From Luteibacter jiangsuensis (GTDB lineage Bacteria; Pseudomonadota; Gammaproteobacteria; Xanthomonadales; Rhodanobacteraceae), in assembly GCF_030812295.1 (NCBI RefSeq), contig NZ_JAUSSK010000002.1:581001-645000 (forward strand): a stretch of 64,000 nucleotides of DNA. Direction: 5' to 3'. The position numbers and the translations under genes are program-made. The notes under the pieces were generated by a model that ran no database searches, was not told the origin of the DNA, and was given only the letters and a program-made list of their open reading frames with translations. The stretch's first letter is position 1, and every line of letters begins with the position of its first letter. Of this stretch, positions 15,955-26,726 are shown in pieces.

Positions 15955-18900
15955 ATGGACGTTCGGGGCACTCAGGGAGGGAGGGCGAATTGGCCCGCCA
16001 CAGGGATGGGTTTGGTCGGTATCGCATGGCGGTATGCTGTTCTGGTGCTTTTCGTCGCTGGCGCGGTGATCTCGCCGGAAGCACGTGGTCAGGATGCCTC
16101 GCCGTCGTCAGGACGACAGCTCCCGGCGTGGACGACGACTGTCCCGGCAGCCGCACCAAACGGCATCGCTGCCACCGTTGACGTGACCGGCACCTGGCAC
16201 GGCAACCTGCATGCAGCCGGTGATTCCACCGCCGCAGACTGGGCCGAGGAATTCGAACTCACGCAGGACGTTGCCGGTAATGTGACAGGCACGCGTCGTA
16301 CGACGCCGCTGTCGAATGCCAGTGGCTGGTACTTATGGTCGATAGCCGGCGGCGTCTCGGGGAACACGTTGACGATCGGCGACGGCACCATCCTTGCGCA
16401 AGGCGGCTCGAACACGGGATGCAAGACGTCGATGTCGCTCGCCTTGTCCGAGACACCGGACGGCACTCGATTACAAGGTACCTGGACCTCAACCCAGGCC
16501 GGCTGTTCCAGTGGCACGGTGGACATCACGCGCTATGGTGGGCAGGCAACCAAGAACCTCGGCAGCGGAGCGAGGTGCGATGGCGGTCTCGGCTCCGCCA
16601 AGTCCGGTAGCGGGAGCGGCGGCACCGCCAGCGGCAATGCCAACGGCTCGTCTTGCGCCGAGGTCATGGGTGCAAACGTCGTGGGCGACCCGATCGATGC
16701 CTCCACCGGTAACTTCCATCTTCAGGAGGACGACTACGAGGGCGGCCCCTGGCTCACCTTCCGGCGCTTCTACAACAGCAACGGCGCGACCGCACCGGCG
16801 GCCATGGGGTTCCGCTGGCGGCACGTCTTCGATCGCTCGCTGAACATCTCGGGCAATCCAGCGAACACCATCATTTCATTGCGCCCCGACGGTAAGCAGA
16901 CGATCTACACGCGCAGCGACAGTACCGGCTCATGGCTCGCCGACACGCGGACGGACATCCTCACCGATCTCCGTGACGCGCAGGGCGCGCCCATGGGGTA
17001 CGCCTTGTTTGTCGGCGGCACACGACAGACCGAAAACTATGATCTGGCCGGTCACCTGATATCGGTGGTTGGCCAGGACGGCCAGGGAATCACGCTCAGT
17101 TATACGGCCACGCCTTCGCCGGCGATCGGATTGCTGTCGACGGTAACTGACTCAAAGGGCCGCCAGCTCGTCTTCACCTACGACAGCTCCGCCCGGCTCA
17201 GTGTGGTGAAGCTGCCCGATGGCAAGAGTCTGTCCTACAGCTACGGCTCTTCCTCGTCCAACCTCAGTCAGGTGGTCTATGCGGACAATCAAACCCGTAG
17301 GTATACCTACAACGAGAGCGGCTTTGTCGGTGCAACACCGCTGCCGAACGCGCTGACGGGCATCACGGACCAGCGCGGTATACGTTACGAAAGCATCACC
17401 TACGACGACCTTGGACGGGCAACCTCGTCGACGTTCAACGGCAATGTTGGCACCACGCGGATCGCTTACCAGGCCGATGGAACCTCGGCGATCACCTACC
17501 CGCTAGGCAATACCGTTCGCATCGCGCCCGTTTCTATCGACGGCCTGATGAGGGTGGGTTCGCTCGACGGTCCTTGCACCCCCGACTGCGGTCAGCCCTG
17601 GCAGTCTCGCACGTATGATGCGCGCGGCTTCCCAGCGAGCATGGTGGACTTCAACGGCGTTTCGACGCAGACCACATACGACGCCTTTGGGTTACTGGAG
17701 TCGACCAGCGAAGCAGTGGGCCTGCCCGAGGAGCGGCGCACGCAGACCACATGGGACACGGGTCTTCGCTTGCCATTGGTGACGCGTGTGCTCGACGGTG
17801 CCGGAACGGCGCTCATGGCCACGAGCCAGGTCTACGATGCGACAGGGCTATTGCTTGCACGTTGCCAAGCGGATCTCGCAGAACCTGGCGCTTCGACCTA
17901 TGTCTGCTCGCCGACCGGAGATGTCCCTGCTGGCGTACGTCGCTGGATCTACACCTATTGCGCTGTGGTCGACACCACACAGTGTCCGCTAGCCGGTCTT
18001 CTGCTGAGTATCACCGGACCGCGCAAGGACGTGGTGCAGACCACGACGTACCAGTACTACATGGACGATACCGCTCAGTGGCGACACGGCGACCTGAAGT
18101 CCGTCACCGATGCATTGGGCCACGTCACCCGCATTGCGAAGTACGACGGCGCGGGTAGACCGACGCGCACCATCGATGCCAATGGCGTCATCACCGATCT
18201 CACGTACACGCCACGCGGATGGCTACAATCGCGGACGGTACGGGCCAATGCCGATGGCTCGGATGCATCGGGCGACGTCCTGACGAAAATTGCCTACACA
18301 ACGTACGGCAACGTCGAGACCCTCACCGACCCCAGCGGTGTCGTCACGAATTTTATCTACGACAACGCCCATCGCCTGACGGACATCAAGGACACCGCGG
18401 GAAACCGCATTCACTATATTCTCGATGCGGCGGGCAATCGCGTGCAAGAGCAGGTGCTCAATCCGTCTGGCGTCGTGATCAAGGGCGTAACGCGGACATA
18501 CAACGCCTTGGGACGCCTGACCCGACTCTTCGACGGCCTGAACCACGTGATCATGGATGCCAGCGCCCCCGCCGCATACGACGGCAACGGCCATCTCGTA
18601 CAAAACATCGACGGCCTGGGCGTGCAGACGAAGGCAACGTACGACGGCCTGGATCGACTGGTCGTGGCTATTCAGGATGCCAGCGGGAAGACAGCGGCCA
18701 CTCAAAACACGCAGACCGTGACGCAATACGATGCGCTCGATCACATCGAGGGCATCAGCGACCCCGAGGGCCTAGCGACCACGTACGTTCGCAACGCCTT
18801 CGGCGATGTCGTGAACCAGGTGAGCCCGGATACGGGGCCATCGTCGGCAGGTTTCGACGAGGCTGGCAACGCCACGACCAGCACGGATGCCCGTGGCACG

Positions 18901-20586
18901 ACCGTCAGCTACACCTACGACGCACTGAACCGTCGTACCTCGGCGACTTACCCGACGACCGCCGACAACGTGTTGTGGCGTTACGACGAGCCGGACAGTA
19001 CGACCGGATGCGCGGGCTCCTTCCCGATCGGCCGGCTCACCCGCATCGTGGAATCGGCCGTGACAACGACCTATTGCTACGACCGGCGTGGGAACGTTAC
19101 CCGGAAGAGCCAGACGCTCGGAACACAGACCGACACGACCAGTTACACCTATACCCGCGCGGATCGGCTGGACACCGTGACGTATCCAAATGGTGGCAAG
19201 GTGACCTATTCGCGGGACTACCGGGGTCGCACGGTATCGATACTCTTCACGGCCCCTGGGGTGGGCCAGACCGTGGTCAGTAGCGTCACCTATCTGCCTT
19301 TCGGACCGGTGGCAAGTTACCGCCTGGGGAGCGGGCAGACCGTTACGCGAACTTACGATGCGAACTTTGCGGTCACCGACGTCTCCAGCCCGGCGCTCGA
19401 TCTGCACTTCGCACGCGACGTCATGGGCAACCTCGTGTCGCTCGGTGCCACCCCTGGCGCCATTCCGGCAACGGAAACCTACACTTATGATCCGCTCTAC
19501 CGCCTGACCTCCGTGAATGACGCGGATGGCGCGGCGATCGAGGCCTACACGTATAACAGGACCGGCGATCGACTGAACAAGGTGGCGCCAGGACAAGCCA
19601 CCGGCGCTTACGGCTATCAGGCAGGTACTCATTGGCTCACGAGCGTAGGAACCGATTCCCGTACCTACGATTCCAATGGAAACACGACCGGAAGCACGAT
19701 CGCCGGCGAGGCACTCGGCTACGGTTACAACGGCCGCAATCGCATGACGGCGGTCCGGCGCAATGGCGCTACGGTAGGTACGTACGTCTACAATGCGCTC
19801 GGACAGCGAGTGTCCAAGACGGTAACAACGCCTGCTGCTGGTATCACGCGGTTCGTGTATGACGAAAACAGTCAGCTATTGGCCGAGTATGGGGCCACGA
19901 ACCGGGATATTGTCTGGCTGGACAACTTGCCTATTGCAACGGTCGACATCGCTGGCGGAATTGCGACTTTCGGATATATTCACGCGGATGCATTGGGTAC
20001 GCCTCGTGCGGTCGCCGATGCCAAGGGCGTGACGATCTGGACGTTGGTGTTTCAGGGAAACCCGTTTGGCGAGATGCTGCCGGCGTCTCTGACGGGTTAC
20101 ACGTTGAATCTTCGTTTTCCCGGTCAGTACTTCGATGCAGAGAGTGGGCTGAGCTACAACGTAAACCGTGACTATGAACCCGCAACTGGGCGGTACATTC
20201 AAAGCGATCCACTCGGTTTACTCGCAGGCACTACTACGTTCGCCTACGTAGGAAGCAATCCGCTTGGTTACGTAGATCCTCTAGGGCTCGCTACAAAGTG
20301 CAAAACGATTCTCAAGCTTCCCGGCTTCGACCTCCAGAAATGCTCCGACGATGGATCACAGCCCTCGCCACAAGATGCGAAGGATGCGAAGCGGATGTCA
20401 CCGGGACAGTTGGACAAGGCATGTGAGGCAAACGGATACAAAGACGCACATGAAATGAAGAGGGATCTAAACCTCGGCAGCGACCGTGACATATTTGTCG
20501 ACGGGAATGGGAACATGTATTCCGGGCCACGGCAAGGAACCGGGCAAATGGAATACTTAAATATGAACTCGAACGGGTGGAAGTAA
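15955..20586 (+). CDS. RHS-repeat polymorphic toxin, C-terminal toxin type 33-like
   Basis: 1543 residues. The ATG at 15955 has AGGGA upstream. A membrane/signal segment (about 27-45) is followed by a beta-rich domain (VTGTWHGNLHA..., about 75-200), a DUF6531-type entry motif (GDPIDASTGNFHLQEDDYEGG), then many YD/RHS repeats (YDALNRRTSATYP and similar). The conserved RHS end is NVNRDYEPATGRYIQSDPLGL and NPLGYVDPLGL near residue 1443. The last 100 residues are a separate lower-GC module (MSPGQLDKACEANGYKDAHEMK, DRDIFVDGNGNMYSGPRQGTG) resembling polymorphic toxin type 33. The protein likely forms a shell that delivers the toxin tip to competitors. The next gene is the probable immunity gene. 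Confidence 0.85.
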   Translation: MDVRGTQGGRANWPATGMGLVGIAWRYAVLVLFVAGAVISPEARGQDASPSSGRQLPAWTTTVPAAAPNGIAATVDVTGTWHGNLHAAGDSTAADWAEEFELTQDVAGNVTGTRRTTPLSNASGWYLWSIAGGVSGNTLTIGDGTILAQGGSNTGCKTSMSLALSETPDGTRLQGTWTSTQAGCSSGTVDITRYGGQATKNLGSGARCDGGLGSAKSGSGSGGTASGNANGSSCAEVMGANVVGDPIDASTGNFHLQEDDYEGGPWLTFRRFYNSNGATAPAAMGFRWRHVFDRSLNISGNPANTIISLRPDGKQTIYTRSDSTGSWLADTRTDILTDLRDAQGAPMGYALFVGGTRQTENYDLAGHLISVVGQDGQGITLSYTATPSPAIGLLSTVTDSKGRQLVFTYDSSARLSVVKLPDGKSLSYSYGSSSSNLSQVVYADNQTRRYTYNESGFVGATPLPNALTGITDQRGIRYESITYDDLGRATSSTFNGNVGTTRIAYQADGTSAITYPLGNTVRIAPVSIDGLMRVGSLDGPCTPDCGQPWQSRTYDARGFPASMVDFNGVSTQTTYDAFGLLESTSEAVGLPEERRTQTTWDTGLRLPLVTRVLDGAGTALMATSQVYDATGLLLARCQADLAEPGASTYVCSPTGDVPAGVRRWIYTYCAVVDTTQCPLAGLLLSITGPRKDVVQTTTYQYYMDDTAQWRHGDLKSVTDALGHVTRIAKYDGAGRPTRTIDANGVITDLTYTPRGWLQSRTVRANADGSDASGDVLTKIAYTTYGNVETLTDPSGVVTNFIYDNAHRLTDIKDTAGNRIHYILDAAGNRVQEQVLNPSGVVIKGVTRTYNALGRLTRLFDGLNHVIMDASAPAAYDGNGHLVQNIDGLGVQTKATYDGLDRLVVAIQDASGKTAATQNTQTVTQYDALDHIEGISDPEGLATTYVRNAFGDVVNQVSPDTGPSSAGFDEAGNATTSTDARGTTVSYTYDALNRRTSATYPTTADNVLWRYDEPDSTTGCAGSFPIGRLTRIVESAVTTTYCYDRRGNVTRKSQTLGTQTDTTSYTYTRADRLDTVTYPNGGKVTYSRDYRGRTVSILFTAPGVGQTVVSSVTYLPFGPVASYRLGSGQTVTRTYDANFAVTDVSSPALDLHFARDVMGNLVSLGATPGAIPATETYTYDPLYRLTSVNDADGAAIEAYTYNRTGDRLNKVAPGQATGAYGYQAGTHWLTSVGTDSRTYDSNGNTTGSTIAGEALGYGYNGRNRMTAVRRNGATVGTYVYNALGQRVSKTVTTPAAGITRFVYDENSQLLAEYGATNRDIVWLDNLPIATVDIAGGIATFGYIHADALGTPRAVADAKGVTIWTLVFQGNPFGEMLPASLTGYTLNLRFPGQYFDAESGLSYNVNRDYEPATGRYIQSDPLGLLAGTTTFAYVGSNPLGYVDPLGLATKCKTILKLPGFDLQKCSDDGSQPSPQDAKDAKRMSPGQLDKACEANGYKDAHEMKRDLNLGSDRDIFVDGNGNMYSGPRQGTGQMEYLNMNSNGWK

Positions 20587-20972
20587 TGTCGTCGAAATTG
20601 TTCATCTCATTTTCACTCATCGGCACAACCACGCATCCTCGTGATATTTCTGCCGTTACTCGCATCAAGCCTTATACGGAATTATTGCGAGGCGAGCGAA
20701 ACAGCGAGCGAGACTTACCAAGATCCAATCTATGGACGCTTCGCTCGGAAGGCGGCCCGGAACAGTCCGTGGAGTCACATTGGAACACAATCGAGAAAGA
20801 TCTTCTGTCCAACATCGATGCTTTTCGTCGTTTTTCTGCAGAAGGTAGAGCAGTTATAACCATTGTCGTTATGGGCGATGACCCGCGATGTCCGAGTATT
20901 GAGATTCCCCCGTCCATGTCGCTTTTTGCTGGATCAATTGGTGCGACGATCGATGTCGATCACCTACAATAG
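20586..20972 (+). CDS. DUF4279-like protein, probable cognate immunity protein
   Basis: 128 residues. The ATG at 20586 shares its first base with the RHS stop (TAATG), so the two are translationally coupled. The pattern fits DUF4279: KLFISFSLIGTTTHPRDISA, LWTLRSEGG, a long helix ending LLSNIDAFRRFSAEG, VITIVVMGDDPRCPSIEIPP and a final GATIDVDHL. DUF4279 proteins are common directly behind RHS or contact-dependent toxin tips. The GC content is lower than the RHS core, matching the toxin tip. It should bind and neutralise the tip in the producing cell. Confidence 0.75.
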   Translation: MSSKLFISFSLIGTTTHPRDISAVTRIKPYTELLRGERNSERDLPRSNLWTLRSEGGPEQSVESHWNTIEKDLLSNIDAFRRFSAEGRAVITIVVMGDDPRCPSIEIPPSMSLFAGSIGATIDVDHLQ

Positions 20973-21598: not shown

Positions 21599-22012
21599 TC
21601 ATCGGCCGAAGGTGATGAACCGCTTGAGCCTGCCCGTTGCTCGTGCGATCACCCGACGCGTGCGCTCCCGCCACGAGCGACTAGCCCGATCAGAGGCGAC
21701 GTGACGTGCTACCTGCTTCCGCATGATCGCTTCGGCTTGGCTTGGTGAGAAGGCCCGAAGCCATTCCACTTCTCCATTGGAAATAAAGTAATGCGAGTGG
21801 CACGGAGCATCAGCAACGAGAATCGACGGCGTAATAGACGGTCCAGTCACCGTCGCTGAGATACGGTGACCGTCTGGCACCAACAGCGTGATACGGTGAC
21901 CGCATCCGCATGCGCAAAGGAGCGCTGCTAACTCGAATTCCACGTTGTGGTACACGACGCCCGCGATCAACTCCGCAGGAATACGCTGTACTGCCTCATA
22001 TCTGTATCTCAT
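21599..22012 (-). CDS. DUF6527-family protein of a ubiquitin-like module
   Basis: 137 residues. The core (about 1-90) carries the family's metal-site look: CACGCGH at about 33-39 and CHSHYFI at about 71-77, i.e. CxCGxH ... CHSH, good zinc ligands. The remaining 50 residues form a basic helix-rich tail (QVARHVASDRASRSWRERTRR). The start overlaps the E1 stop as ATGA (22009-22012), so it is the third gene of the Ubl-E1-DUF6527 operon. The family is uncharacterised; deconjugation, Ubl maturation or an adaptor/ligase-like role are all possible. Confidence 0.75.
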   Translation of the reverse strand: MRYRYEAVQRIPAELIAGVVYHNVEFELAALLCACGCGHRITLLVPDGHRISATVTGPSITPSILVADAPCHSHYFISNGEVEWLRAFSPSQAEAIMRKQVARHVASDRASRSWRERTRRVIARATGRLKRFITFGR

Positions 22013-23220
22013 TCGCTGGCTCGCTCGGCGTCCGCTTCAAATGACGCGGTTTCGAAGGTGTACCACGCGGCGTCGTTCGTCCGGTCATATAGCCCGAAAT
22101 GCTGTTTAAAGCGGACAACGGCCATCGCCGCATTCAGCGCATTGAGCTCAATGATCTGCGCCTGCTTGCGGTACTCCGCATCCTTCGGATTCACAGTTGG
22201 CAAGTATGGGCTATCCACGGCTCGTTCGTAGGCCTCGCGATCGATTCCGGTGATGCGAACCACGCCGTTAAGCGTTCCGCCGAAGGATCGATTGAGTCCC
22301 ATACCGCAATCGACATAGGGGATGCCCCCATTGCTCAGCCATTCGACGATGAAGCGCCGCGAGGGGCCATCGTCGACTGAGACGAAGACGAAGTCGAAAT
22401 CGCGCAGACGATCTATGTTCTCGGCGGTAACCCGCTCTGGCACAGGTGTGATGCCAGCGTGCCAACTGTCGTAGTACTGACTCAGTGCTTCGACCTTCGG
22501 CTTTCCGATGGCGTTGCTGCCTATGACTCCTGGGATCCGAAACAGCGTATGGACGTGAATCTTGTCATCGTCGAACAACGTGATGGCTTCCAAGTGTGTT
22601 CGCACAACAAAATCCAGGATGCATGATCCGGTACCCCCGAGTCCGACAATGGCTACCTTTTTTCGTCGAAGGCGGTCACTTAGGTCGTTAATGCCGTAGT
22701 TCGAAGAAGCCGTGTCTGGGAGCCGAAGCGGCGATCCCTGCTCGGCAGCCCGCCGTTCGATGCCACGCAAAGGTGTCGCGCCGGGATGCGCCGCTATAGC
22801 TGGCCGGACTATGACGTCGAGATAGGTTTGGATCTTCTCTTGGAAGGAGACGTAGTTGCGCGGCTGCTGGTCATCGTCCCGCAGCTTCAACGAGAACGCC
22901 CAGTCCGTCATGATGCCGGGAATGATCTGGACAGTCGCAGGTGCGGCACCAATGCCCAGCTCGACTCCGCCCGCGGCGTACGGCCGGCCGCCACGCCACC
23001 ACACCTGGTGGGTGCCGGCAGGCTCGATCACTGATTCGGGACCAAGGGCAACGGGGGTGAACAGATCGCCATATTGAATAGCGCCGGCCTGATCCAGGTA
23101 GGGCAAGCCGTAGAGCGAAAAGTGCCCCCCCAAGAAGTCGGCGTGGTAGCCGAGTTCATGGAGGTCCCGGACGAACGGATTACGACTCGCCAGTTCCAGA
23201 AACACGGAATCGCATGCCAT
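22009..23220 (-). CDS. E1-like ThiF-family adenylyltransferase with N-terminal DUF6791-like domain
   Basis: 403 residues from the ATG at 23220, which overlaps the Ubl gene by 41 bp. Residues about 1-165 are a DUF6791-like domain (NPFVRDLHELGYHADFLGGHF, WWRGGRPYAAGGVELG). Residues about 187-400 are a Rossmann ThiF/E1 domain with the ATP loop VGLGGTGS (192-199), the acidic strand ITLFDDDKIHVHTLFR (Asp/Arg for Mg-ATP) and FVFVSVDDGPSRR. A Cys at 305 (PYVDCGMGLN) is the best candidate for a catalytic thioester residue. It should adenylate the C-terminus of the adjacent Ubl. There is no E2 gene nearby. The third gene, DUF6527, is translationally coupled. Confidence 0.85.
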   Translation of the reverse strand: MACDSVFLELASRNPFVRDLHELGYHADFLGGHFSLYGLPYLDQAGAIQYGDLFTPVALGPESVIEPAGTHQVWWRGGRPYAAGGVELGIGAAPATVQIIPGIMTDWAFSLKLRDDDQQPRNYVSFQEKIQTYLDVIVRPAIAAHPGATPLRGIERRAAEQGSPLRLPDTASSNYGINDLSDRLRRKKVAIVGLGGTGSCILDFVVRTHLEAITLFDDDKIHVHTLFRIPGVIGSNAIGKPKVEALSQYYDSWHAGITPVPERVTAENIDRLRDFDFVFVSVDDGPSRRFIVEWLSNGGIPYVDCGMGLNRSFGGTLNGVVRITGIDREAYERAVDSPYLPTVNPKDAEYRKQAQIIELNALNAAMAVVRFKQHFGLYDRTNDAAWYTFETASFEADAERASE

Positions 23221-23428
23221 TTTTGATTCTAACCTCTTCTGAAGGTGCGAGCGTGCCACTCGGATTCTCCGAGGGGCCATGGGAATACTTGACGACGTAC
23301 TGTTTCGACTGCGGTTGGCCTGCGCCAAGGTAGAGATCGACGACACGCTCGTACGAAATCGTCTGTGTCTCGACCTCGTGGCTATCCTGGTTGACGAAAA
23401 TATGAAGCTTTTTCTTTTCGGTGGTCAT
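23180..23428 (-). CDS. single-domain ubiquitin-like protein (multi-ubiquitin family)
   Basis: 82 residues, one beta-grasp domain of the multi_ubiq type. KLHIFVNQDSHEVETQTISYERVVDLYLG gives the first hairpin and helix, YVVKYSHGPSENPSGTL the middle strands, and EEVRIKNGMRFRVSG the last strand. Family members often carry several tandem domains; this has one. The C-terminus is ...SGTGES, so Gly is followed by two extra residues. Conjugation through Gly would need trimming; direct use of Ser is the alternative. It is the first gene of the operon and likely the substrate of the E1 encoded next. Confidence 0.8.
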   Translation of the reverse strand: MTTEKKKLHIFVNQDSHEVETQTISYERVVDLYLGAGQPQSKQYVVKYSHGPSENPSGTLAPSEEVRIKNGMRFRVSGTGES

Positions 23429-23487
23429 AATCTGTGCTCTCGAGGAGGTCCGTATAAAAGCCCATGGCGGTCATGAAATTAGAGACA

Positions 23488-23540
23488 ACTCATCTTTATG
23501 AGTCCATGGACACAGATGCTGTGTTCGACTAAGAATCGAA
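23488..23540. promoter_or_regulatory. three adjacent inverted repeats in the divergent promoter region
   Basis: Within the 282-bp gap between the Ubl operon and the sigma-like operon lie ACTCAT-CTTT-ATGAGT (23488-23503), ACACAG-ATG-CTGTGT (23510-23524) and TTCGA-CTAAGAA-TCGAA (23524-23540). The cluster is AT-richer than its surroundings and lies about 60-110 bp before the Ubl start. It probably carries the operator(s) controlling both operons. The rest of the gap to 23710 shows only a good AGGAGG at 23700-23705. Confidence 0.5.
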
Positions 23541-23710
23541 CATACAACGCGTTAGGTCGGGCACAGGGCCGCCCATATCCTTAGGCGCTTGGAAACGGCA
23601 AGTTCGGACATGACCGAAGGAACTATCTCCAGGGGCATCGCGTTGGCGGTAAAGTTGGGTGGCGTGTCCTAACGGGCGCGTCTGGAGAGCCTAAGCACAA
23701 GGAGGCCGCC

Positions 23711-24268
23711 GTGACCAAAGCAGATCCCGATCATTCCATCCGGTCTACGGACGAAATTCATTCATTGATTCAGCAGCTTACGCGTGCCGAATGGCGGCGA
23801 TTGATGGTCGCCGCCTCCCGTCTCGCATCGAGCCTGCCAGGCTCAAGCGCTGAAGACGTGCTGCAAGAAGCCCTAGATGCGGCCTTGACTGGCCGACGAA
23901 TCTGTCCCAGGCATGTACCCGTTGTGACCTTTCTTGCGAATGCCATGCGTAGCGAACTAAATAACCTGCGCAAGAAGGCGGAGCGAACGGATGCATTGGA
24001 CGAAGTCTCGGAGGATCTCGATGGTTTGGTCGTCGAGTCGGCCGAGGACGCCGTGGTGTGGATGAACGACCTCGTCGCGCGGGTGCAACGCATCGCGGCG
24101 GCGTCGAAAGACGGTCGGGTACTAATGGTTCTTGAGGGGCGAGCAGAAGGGATGTCGCGCGAGGAGTTGCGTGACATGCTTAGCATCCCTTGGACCGAGT
24201 TCGAGTCCCTGGAGCGGCAGATCCGCCGGCTTCGGGATCGCGACGCCGACGAGGAGCGGACGGCATGA
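23711..24268 (+). CDS. sigma-70-like protein of the Ubl module
   Basis: 185 residues from a GTG with a perfect AGGAGG 5 bp upstream. Residues about 35-95 resemble sigma region 2 (SSAEDVLQEALDAAL, VVTFLANAMRSELNNLRKKAERTDAL). Residues about 125-180 resemble region 4 (VLMVLEGRAEGMSREELRDMLSIPWTEFESLERQIRRLR, an HTH). The long acidic linker between them is unusual, so it may be a specialised or degenerate sigma. It starts the plus-strand operon facing the Ubl operon; the next gene overlaps by ATGA. It probably drives one or both operons under stress or infection, but that is inference. Confidence 0.7.
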   Translation: MTKADPDHSIRSTDEIHSLIQQLTRAEWRRLMVAASRLASSLPGSSAEDVLQEALDAALTGRRICPRHVPVVTFLANAMRSELNNLRKKAERTDALDEVSEDLDGLVVESAEDAVVWMNDLVARVQRIAAASKDGRVLMVLEGRAEGMSREELRDMLSIPWTEFESLERQIRRLRDRDADEERTA

Positions 24269-24690
24269 CCAAGCACGCCAACGATGCGAAAGACCAGTTC
24301 GAACGGACGCTTGATTTCCTGCTTGAGGATGTCGATCGCCTGACCGACGCGGAGGTCGAGGAGGAGCTGCGCCTGGCCTTTGGCGATGTGTCTGCCGCCG
24401 ATGCCGCCGCTGCGCGCGCATTGATGGGCGCGAAGCGAGCCGGCGGGGCTGCCCGATTGGCCAGGGCAAAGATGGCCCTCGCCGGCCAATCGCGCGCCGA
24501 CGCACTACCTAGCGTGTCCGGCGCCGAAGCCAAGGCAGCGGTGCTCGGATACTGGCGTGCCAACCCGGGAGAACGGCCGATCACTATGGCCGCGAGAAAC
24601 GGCCAGACCTTGTCGGAAAGCGATGCGCTAGAAGTCTATCGCTCTCTCTTAGCATTGGGTTTAATCTCGGAGCCATCGAGTGGCCAGTGA
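24265..24690 (+). CDS. unknown 141-residue protein coupled to the sigma-like gene
   Basis: 141 residues. The ATG at 24265 overlaps the sigma stop (ATGA). It is almost all helix: an acidic first half (DFLLEDVDRLTDAEVEEELRL), an Ala-rich middle (ADAAAARALMGAKRAGGAARL) and a C-terminal segment (SESDALEVYRSLLALGLI) that could be a small winged-helix piece. I do not recognise a family. Its position between a sigma-like gene and an ImmA/IrrE protease gene suggests an anti-sigma factor or protease-sensitive adaptor; this is inference only. Confidence 0.65.
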   Translation: MTKHANDAKDQFERTLDFLLEDVDRLTDAEVEEELRLAFGDVSAADAAAARALMGAKRAGGAARLARAKMALAGQSRADALPSVSGAEAKAAVLGYWRANPGERPITMAARNGQTLSESDALEVYRSLLALGLISEPSSGQ

Positions 24691-25471
24691 TTTGGCCGCA
24701 GAGGCGCTCATCGACGAGCTGGGCATTGACCATCCAAAAGACATCGATCTCGACGCGATCGCGTTGACAGTGGGCATCTCGGTAACCTATCGCCGCTTGA
24801 CTGGTTGCGATGCGCTTCTCGTTGGACATGAGGCTCGTGCCATGGTCACAGTCAATCGGGACTGCTCGACAGAGCGGCAACGGTTCTCGTTAGCCCACGA
24901 ATTGGGACACTGGCACTATCACCGAGGTCAAGGCTTGTATTGCTTGTCGGGCGACATAGACGGCGACCCCCGAGTAGGTCGAGAGCCAGAGCTGACGGCC
25001 GATCATTACGCCTCGTCGCTATTGATGCCCACACGACTTTTTGTACCCTTCGTGGACGCAGCGCAACCAACGTGGAAGCACATGCGTTCCGTTGCATCAG
25101 CTTTCTCAACTAGCCTCGTCGCAACCGCTCTGCGAATGTCAGAATTGAGCGCTTCACCGTTGCTGTTTGTCGTGGCCAAGCATGGGCGAAGGCAGTGGTT
25201 CCATCGAGGTCCAGCGGGTACCGAAGCGGGTTGGTTTCCTACAGAGGCGCTGGGGGCGGAGAGCGCCGCGTTTGACCTGAGCTTCAGAGCGGAGCCGGCA
25301 CGTGGGCCTCGCCGCGTACCGGCCCACGCTTGGTTTGATGGGTGGACGTTTGGGGGCGGCATGGAGATCATGGAGGATGCAATCCGCGTCGGCGACTCAG
25401 CCTACGCATTGCTCTGGCCCACTACGGGTGGTCTGCAAGCGAGGTCTAGGGGTGCGTCCCGGACGTGGTGA
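24680..25471 (+). CDS. ImmA/IrrE-family metallo-endopeptidase
   Basis: 263 residues from a GTG at 24680 that overlaps the upstream gene's stop. The zinc motif HELGH in FSLAHELGHWHYHRG (about 74-78) and a downstream Glu/Asp-rich helix TADHYASSLLMP (about 113) are the standard ImmA/IrrE metalloprotease core. The C-terminal half (about 145-263) is a less conserved sensor-like domain with aromatic and Gly turns (GWFPTEALG, FDGWTFGGG). ImmA-type proteases cut repressors or regulators in response to a signal. Here the neighbours (sigma-like and 141-residue proteins, or the Ubl) are plausible substrates. Confidence 0.85.
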   Translation: MASDLAAEALIDELGIDHPKDIDLDAIALTVGISVTYRRLTGCDALLVGHEARAMVTVNRDCSTERQRFSLAHELGHWHYHRGQGLYCLSGDIDGDPRVGREPELTADHYASSLLMPTRLFVPFVDAAQPTWKHMRSVASAFSTSLVATALRMSELSASPLLFVVAKHGRRQWFHRGPAGTEAGWFPTEALGAESAAFDLSFRAEPARGPRRVPAHAWFDGWTFGGGMEIMEDAIRVGDSAYALLWPTTGGLQARSRGASRTW

Positions 25472-25850
25472 CCTGATCAGAAAATTGAGGCAAATGCTCG
25501 CGCTAGGGCTGCATCGTTCGTCTGCACTCGTGGGTAGACGAACGGTCAAGGAAGTCGTTGGTAATGGACGAACGCAAAGACCATCTTTCGTCGCATCGTA
25601 TGTGCCGCAGACACCAGTATTGCAAACGGCCATAATAGGCCGCAGAAAAATCACCACATCAATCGGCTCGACCGAGGTGCAATCCGCTGGCAGCTCATCT
25701 TGCAAGCCAGGCGAAAGCCAAACGTCGTGATACGCCTGTTCGCGGCGCCGCTTGTAGGTCTTTCAGGCCCCACGCCTGCCCTCGCTGTCAAGCCCAGTCA
25801 GGCGCCGACGCGCCGTCATGCTCGAGCCATTATGTTTGTCGTTAACGAAG
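25472..25850. other. 379-bp gap without a convincing gene
   Basis: Several short frames run through both strands but lack ribosome sites and sensible composition. No clear terminator was found after the ImmA/IrrE gene. It may be decayed sequence between defence modules. Confidence 0.4.
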
Positions 25851-26726
25851 ATGATTCACCACTACACCAGTGCCGCCACGCTCAAACTGATTCTCGCCAA
25901 CCGAACGATTCGCTTCAGGCGCGCGGACTTGCTCGACGATGAGTCCGAGGTGCCGTTTCAGCATGCGCTTGTACATCGGAAATCGTTCTTCATCAGTTCT
26001 TGGTCGCAGGCAACAGTCGGCGAAGCAGGCATGTGGTCGCGTTACGGCGACTTTGACCAAGGTGTTCGCCTCTCGGTAGACACCTTGCGCTTTCCATGGT
26101 CACCACTGTCTCTGGAGATATCCCGAGGCACCGGAAGGCTAAAACCCGATGGCACGCCTCAGCGTGTGGGCCTCAAGGTGACCGATCTTTTAGTTCCCTT
26201 CTCAAAAGAGACCTTCTTGGGAAACGGCTATATCGCGACCCCCATGAGCGGGGACTTGCAAGAGACCTTCGGCGGAAGAGTGCACTACGCCACCGATCCG
26301 CAGGCCGTCATCGCGCAGCTCATTAATGTCACAAACGAGGGCATTACCGTCAGAGGCGACGGCTCAATTTTGGCGCGTGTCAAAGACAGCGGATGGGCGG
26401 ACCAAGCGGAGTATCGCTTCGTTCTCCACGCGATTCGTGGTCCGGCTATGGTCTACACGGCGGATCCGGCGGCATATGAGCGGTCAATGGTGAATATGGT
26501 GGAGGCGGCCCTAGAGCGGATGGTGTTCGCCGACTTGCATCCCGAAGTCGAGTTCATCGACTTGCCCCTCGCTTATGACGCTTTCGACGATCTCACCGTC
26601 ACTCTGGGGCCTGCCATGACAGCAGAGCAGCAACAGGCGACCATCGAAGACGTCCACGCGCTAGCACCATCGGTGCGCGTCGTGCCATCGGCCCTACGCA
26701 TCAAGCCCCGACCTCGTCCTGCCTGA
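25851..26726 (+). CDS. DUF2971-family protein
   Basis: 291 residues. The ATG at 25851 starts directly with the family motif HHYTSAATLKLILANRTIRF. Then DLLDDESEVPF and SSWSQATVGEAGMWSRYGDFDQGVRLSVD follow, all diagnostic of DUF2971 (phage- and defence-associated, function unproved). An in-frame ATG at 25818 would add 11 residues that do not fit the family. The fold may relate to ADP-ribosyl or NAD-binding folds, but I cannot show this from sequence. It lies between the Ubl module and the metallophosphoesterase-NTPase gene, on the same strand as the latter, 311 bp apart. Confidence 0.75.
   Translation: MIHHYTSAATLKLILANRTIRFRRADLLDDESEVPFQHALVHRKSFFISSWSQATVGEAGMWSRYGDFDQGVRLSVDTLRFPWSPLSLEISRGTGRLKPDGTPQRVGLKVTDLLVPFSKETFLGNGYIATPMSGDLQETFGGRVHYATDPQAVIAQLINVTNEGITVRGDGSILARVKDSGWADQAEYRFVLHAIRGPAMVYTADPAAYERSMVNMVEAALERMVFADLHPEVEFIDLPLAYDAFDDLTVTLGPAMTAEQQQATIEDVHALAPSVRVVPSALRIKPRPRPA

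Follow-up and report, generated by a model that had tools for sequence, protein, structure and literature searches.

We analyzed a three-gene operon in a 64,000-nucleotide stretch of Luteibacter jiangsuensis DNA (contig NZ_JAUSSK010000002.1, positions 581,001 to 645,000; here called the window). Its minus-strand genes overlap head to tail across 23428-21599 and encode, in this order, a ubiquitin-like protein (Ubl), an E1-like enzyme, and a DUF6527 protein (Table 1). The operon is real, conserved, and mobile, and its outline has been known since 2006. With a little better than even confidence, we read it as a compact variant of the Bub protein tagging pathway (type 6e of Iyer and coworkers), in which a Ser-ended Ubl would be handled by an E1 whose DUF6791 domain is predicted to be cysteine-free and E2-like and transferred through a Tyr/Ser ester relay. 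This reading builds on the gene order, the conserved residues, and the kinship of the E1 with BubCD that we observed and on the predicted fold of DUF6791; the chemistry, the targets, and a role in defense are proposed.

The gene identities given by a first-pass annotation, which had been made from the sequence of the window, agree with our profile searches, in which the Multi_ubiq Ubl, the DUF6791-ThiF E1, and the DUF6527 protein all exceeded the Pfam cut-offs. The overlapping arrangement was also found as described: the E1 start codon sits within the Ubl gene, and an ATGA is the overlap of the E1 and DUF6527 genes. The best NCBIfam matches of the E1 were sub-cut-off "hypothetical protein" models. 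PADLOC assigned none of the three proteins to a known system; its E1-E2 models matched the window E1 in the ThiF part. The annotation was likewise right that a JAB gene is absent, the sole Prok-JAB match in the genome being a sub-cut-off hit to RadC (53689-52880), and no separate E2 and JAB genes of the BilABCD kind were present among the open reading frames (ORFs) scanned at the locus. A PF14462 search of the same genome gave no match and is uninformative, as the controls of that search matched nowhere either.

The closest known relative is the Bub pathway of Citrobacter (BubA-BubB-BubCD; PDB 9ea4, 9ea5, 9ea8, 9eae, and 9eav), which bears out the suspected kinship to bacterial Ubl systems. 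A Foldseek search with the E1 model ranked the solved Citrobacter BubCD first, and the window E1 is homologous to the ThiF part, BubD (hhalign E value, 1.5e-20). On a Citrobacter plasmid coding for a relative of BubCD (88% identity across 137 compared residues), multiubiquitin, ThiF, and DUF6527 genes follow one another; the ThiF protein starts with an HSHPG..S..D stretch resembling JAB, and the Ubl protein has an E2-like part at its end. From these features, we conclude that Bub represents the branch of this operon type that carries JAB, with DUF6527 common to both branches. In the E1 tree, the 54 DUF6791-type and 8 JAB-type sequences form separate branches (100/100 support). Both have (i) a Multi_ubiq Ubl, (ii) a homologous ThiF E1, (iii) DUF6527 as the last gene, (iv) an E2-like fold, which for DUF6791 is predicted, and (v) an invariant Tyr toward the E1 C terminus. 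They differ in that the window operon lacks a JAB domain, DUF6791 taking its place at the E1 N terminus; in that the E2-like domain follows the Ubl in Bub, whereas it is predicted to be fused to the E1 N terminus in the window; and in that the window Ubl ends in Ser.

The gene set was compared across 41 loci from a contig scan, searches of 398, 200, 369, and 398 genomes, and five plasmid records. After removal of JAB-type and truncated loci, 77 usable DUF6791-type E1 sequences remained (score over 150, profile start at or before 60), and collapsing rows identical over 300 residues left 54 distinct E1s: 33 from the contig scan, 16 from the genome searches, 4 from plasmids, and the window's own. 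A same-strand Ubl gene lies beside the E1 gene in all 54 loci. DUF6527 is present in 52, and in each of these the three genes run Ubl, E1, DUF6527 on one strand; in the two others (L044 and L047), the stretch stops at the E1 or shortly past it, and other stretches of these loci (L069 and L070) contain DUF6527. The linkage on which the first-pass annotation depended is therefore kept. On a Methylomonas plasmid (L072:5194-7050), an IS256 element directly follows the E1, with a partial DUF6527 match beyond. No shared extra gene was seen downstream: in a Pfam scan of 63 of 105 downstream ORFs from 33 loci, each of 25 of the 33 families was listed in one member only. The set is mobile, since matches to the E1 occur in 114 plasmid records and cover at least 80% of its length in 109; no relative of the E1 was found in phage records. 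DUF6791 is rare in the sampled genomes (6/200 of the order, 5/369 of the class, and 8/398 of the phylum, own genome included).

The Ubl had been noted to end in Gly-Glu-Ser, and a maturation step had been taken to be implied. The end itself is borne out and is not due to chance, since 118 of 120 listed relatives (of 200 found) share GES. All 54 distinct loci have Ser as the final residue of the Ubl (GES in 29, DKS in 7, VQS in 6, NRS in 6, GQS in 3, and IQS, SRS, and DRS in 1 each), and position -4 is Thr in 50; Gly occupies position -3 in only 32, the other 22 having Asp, Val, Asn, Ile, or Ser. A variable -3 position with a fixed terminal Ser is not what a disposable tail predicts and does not support a maturation step. 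We read the pattern to mean that in the JAB-free kind the Ubl may be born with its final end, and the Ser carboxylate would be the group activated. The same Ser end (...TQTDKS) is found in the ZDHYS365 multi-ubiquitin protein (PDB 9cd2), a member of the same Ubl family (profile E value, 2.3e-22); it differs in being a 222-residue chain, matched over its last 80 residues, that probably comprises several domains, whereas the window Ubl has one. In JAB-type or separate-E2 loci the ends are mixed (TEG in L082 and L085, GQN in L083, GNH in L086, and FGL in L053), and a Ser end is not exclusive to the DUF6791 type (DDNS in L050, HEDS in L056, and GQES in L081). Such relatives give some weight to the alternative that a housekeeping or other peptidase strips Glu-Ser and exposes Gly80 for ordinary Gly-based conjugation: several with JAB or E2 have Gly plus a short tail, the Citrobacter BubA piece 155-229 ends in Gly (NNG) ahead of a tail EES, and the L081 end, NPGQES, resembles GES. 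Trimming is nevertheless unlikely in view of the 22 loci without Gly at -3 and the constant final Ser, and the only linked peptidase seen is the divergent CapP.

In the ThiF half of the E1, R227 and K241, which we take to be adenylation residues, are present in all 54 distinct sequences and D282 in 51. The ATP loop placed at 192-199 by the first-pass annotation corresponds to a glycine loop at residues 192-197, and its candidate catalytic Cys 305 is residue 304 when counted from the ATG at 23217. Canonical chemistry, in which a Cys304-Ubl thioester forms and the E1 transfers the Ubl to targets without any E2, could draw on the invariance of this residue in the 120 close relatives listed (of 586 found) and throughout the window's clade on the tree (27 of 27 rows). 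Over the 54 distinct loci, however, position 304 is Cys in 32, Val in 20, and Thr in 2; BubCD has Val at the matching position, L029 and L030 have Val or Thr despite a GES Ubl, and the Cys label needs three changes on the E1 tree. A 27-row E1 alignment contained no Cys among its invariant or nearly invariant columns. Moreover, Cys304 occupies a strand position near the ATP site, and the catalytic Cys of E1s sits elsewhere. Conservation thus rules out Cys304 as a family-wide nucleophile, and we regard the thioester route as rather improbable, slightly more so than Glu-Ser trimming; from its distribution, Cys304 may have a clade-specific role among the window's close relatives. Tyr349 is present in all 53 readable E1 sequences (in L026, a run of unknown bases lies ahead of it). 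With Citrobacter residue numbers matched via a C. braakii relative (residue 104, Asp of the JAB motif; residue 370, Tyr), Tyr370 is invariant in the 8 JAB-type E1s and is the position at which the deposited complex of BubCD, BubB, and BubA (9eav) is mutated, according to the entry title. The two tyrosines precede a common helix, within the same stretch, yet remain unaligned (a gap in hhalign), in a region where the E1 model is unsure; we infer that they are equivalent.

The DUF6791 half of the E1 was modeled alone (residues 1-165), because the VIA search with the whole E1 tested residues 156-395 only. The predicted structure has an E2/UBC-like fold and is closest to BubB. The absence of an E2 reported by the first-pass annotation accordingly holds for sequence searches but not for this predicted fold. 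H70, P79, S109, and K111 are invariant in DUF6791, and no conserved Cys was found in it. Sequence-profile comparison failed to prove that DUF6791 corresponds to BubB, and phmmer searches of the neighborhoods with the BubB and BubC parts retrieved JAB-type loci only, except for one match in L032 at an E value of 0.043; the BubC JAB query found nothing in DUF6791-type loci.

The invariant residues of DUF6527 are C33, C35, C37, C71, and H74, and this Cys/His set likely forms a metal site. A PDB sequence search with DUF6527 gave chance-level matches only. DUF6527 proteins of two JAB-type loci (L082:3334-3702 and L083:3298-3633) lack part of the Cys set, and metal binding may not be general among those of JAB-type loci. 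In an E2-bearing locus of Bradyrhizobium guangxiense (L086:3252-4856), the E1 and DUF6527 are separated by an annotated phosphotransferase.

The available passages of Iyer, Burroughs, and Aravind (2006; PMC1779556) describe type 6e as comprising a Ubl of one to three repeats, an E1 that in most cases is fused to JAB, and a metal-binding protein; in a subset, the E1 is fused instead to an uncharacterized domain X, possibly JAB-analogous. The window operon shares with that subset, as described there, a Ubl repeat count of 1 to 3, a non-JAB E1 N-terminal domain, and a likely metal-binding protein. Domain X is likened to DUF6791 by description rather than accession, and DUF6791 is predicted here to be E2-like. 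The site C33-x3-C37-x33-C71-x2-H74 resembles the type 6e motif C-x3-C-x35-38-H-x2-C but differs in spacing and order. These passages on type 6e do not mention the terminal Ser. Our literature search found no paper on DUF6527 or DUF6791 and no other text on the chemistry of the operon. As far as the literature could be surveyed, the predicted E2 fold of DUF6791, the apparently universal terminal Ser of DUF6791-type Ubls, and the comparative evidence against a conserved E1 Cys are new here; the Bub papers of Ye and Gong may contain parts of them.

The Bub pathway reportedly uses an oxyester intermediate. For the window operon we propose the following sequence. (i) Damage or infection would activate CapP, encoded divergently, which would cleave its CapH-like partner. 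(ii) This cleavage would free the sigma-like protein and turn on the operon. (iii) Adenylation by the ThiF domain would take place on the carboxylate of Ser82, the terminal residue of the Ubl itself, making JAB trimming unnecessary. (iv) The Ubl would be passed by ester relay at the invariant Tyr349 of the E1 and probably then at the invariant Ser109 of DUF6791, with no cysteine involved. (v) DUF6527, with its likely metal site, would pick the substrate or assist release of the Ubl. The full cysteine-free version, in which a fused E1-E2 of 402 residues conjugates the Ubl via its invariant C-terminal Ser by a Tyr-to-Ser ester relay and without a maturation protease, is tentative, and we would sooner doubt than expect it. 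Least probable is an MccB-like chemistry, in which adenylation of the C-terminal Ser would yield a small-molecule or nucleotide adduct or a cyclized Ser end instead of a protein conjugate, since a peptide-nucleotide pathway would not be expected to include the predicted E2-fold domain and the DUF6527 partner that the operon shares with Bub.

Three features usually define ubiquitin-like modifiers: a Gly at the C terminus, a thioester Cys in both E1 and E2, and the use of separate enzymes. The DUF6791-type family departs on all counts, with a Ser end in 54/54 loci, no family-wide E1 Cys, and an E2 predicted within the E1. The BilABCD and CBASS Cap2 E1-E2 systems share Ubl-type activation with the window operon; they use cysteine E2s and JAB proteins, and in Cap2 the E2 is fused to the E1 N terminus. 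If the prediction is true, few Ubl conjugation machines would be more compact, and the operon would offer a simple means of testing whether ester relays can take the place of thioesters and which residue other than Gly an E1 can activate. Protein tagging by this set would probably dispense with the separate helper enzymes that are usual elsewhere, and it would likely serve phage defense.

Table 1. Coordinates of the operon and of neighboring features in the window
Feature	Coordinates	Strand	Description
Ubl	23180..23428	-	82 aa; one Multi_ubiq (PF14452) domain, 9.1e-10; C terminus ...SGTGES; S82 invariant among relatives
E1-like protein	22009..23217	-	402 aa from ATG at 23217; DUF6791 (17-169), 9.6e-18; ThiF adenylation domain (~175-390), 1.1e-16
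DUF6791 half of E1	22723..23217	-	Residues 1-165 as folded; predicted E2/UBC-like fold, best match BubB
DUF6527 protein	21599..22012	-	137 aa; Pfam, 4.6e-16; likely metal site
Divergent intergenic region	23429..23710	.	282 bp between Ubl operon and sigma-like gene; presumed regulatory
Sigma-70-like protein	23711..24268	+	185 aa; weak matches; first gene of divergent controller
CapH-like small protein	24268..24690	+	140 aa; weak match to PADLOC capH
CapP-type M78 peptidase	24680..25471	+	263 aa
DUF2971-like protein	25818-26726		302 residues; weak match; between CapP and DS-8
DS-8 anti-phage protein	27038-30094		1018 residues; NCBIfam DS8_antiphage above cut-off; metallophosphatase and STAND NTPase matches

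A phage-defense role of the operon is likely because of its neighborhood, namely, the CapH-CapP-like controller and the DS-8 protein. Upstream scans covered 64 of 169 ORFs, from 33 of 40 loci; M78 peptidase matches were found in 27 of these ORFs and HTH_3 domains in 25, and the capP, capH, and RmrA models matched 25, 19, and up to 35, respectively. These matches indicate that a CapH-CapP-like controller is common beside DUF6791-type operons. An operator search in the intergenic region gave short, unconvincing repeats only. In the available parts of a 2026 paper (PMC13373217), 219 of 544 Bub operons are stated to adjoin CapW or CapH plus CapP, and phage protection by Bub is said to have yet to be demonstrated; the accessible text of a 2025 review (PMC12687455) groups Bub with systems apparently acting in phage defense, and a 2016 study (PMC4963859), as far as available, places 70% of PF14452 proteins beside loci with a COG2856/DUF955 protein.

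The sigma-like gene joins the controller set in the window and in Rhodanobacter (L002), and in the 23711-25471 trio the sigma-like protein is seemingly added to the CapH-CapP pair; the damage switch may exist here in a sigma/anti-sigma version. Plasmid records contained no match to the CapH-like protein; 15 contained relatives of the sigma-like protein, and a row of sigma-like, small, and M78 peptidase genes was present in the three plasmids examined (Cereibacter, Sagittula, and Fuscovulum), next to a nucleotidyltransferase/SAVED (CBASS-like) set in Cereibacter and restriction genes in Sagittula. On the other side of the operon, 15955-20972 encodes an Rhs-repeat protein whose C terminus matches Ntox33 below the cut-off; the DUF4279 protein that comes next could confer immunity to it.
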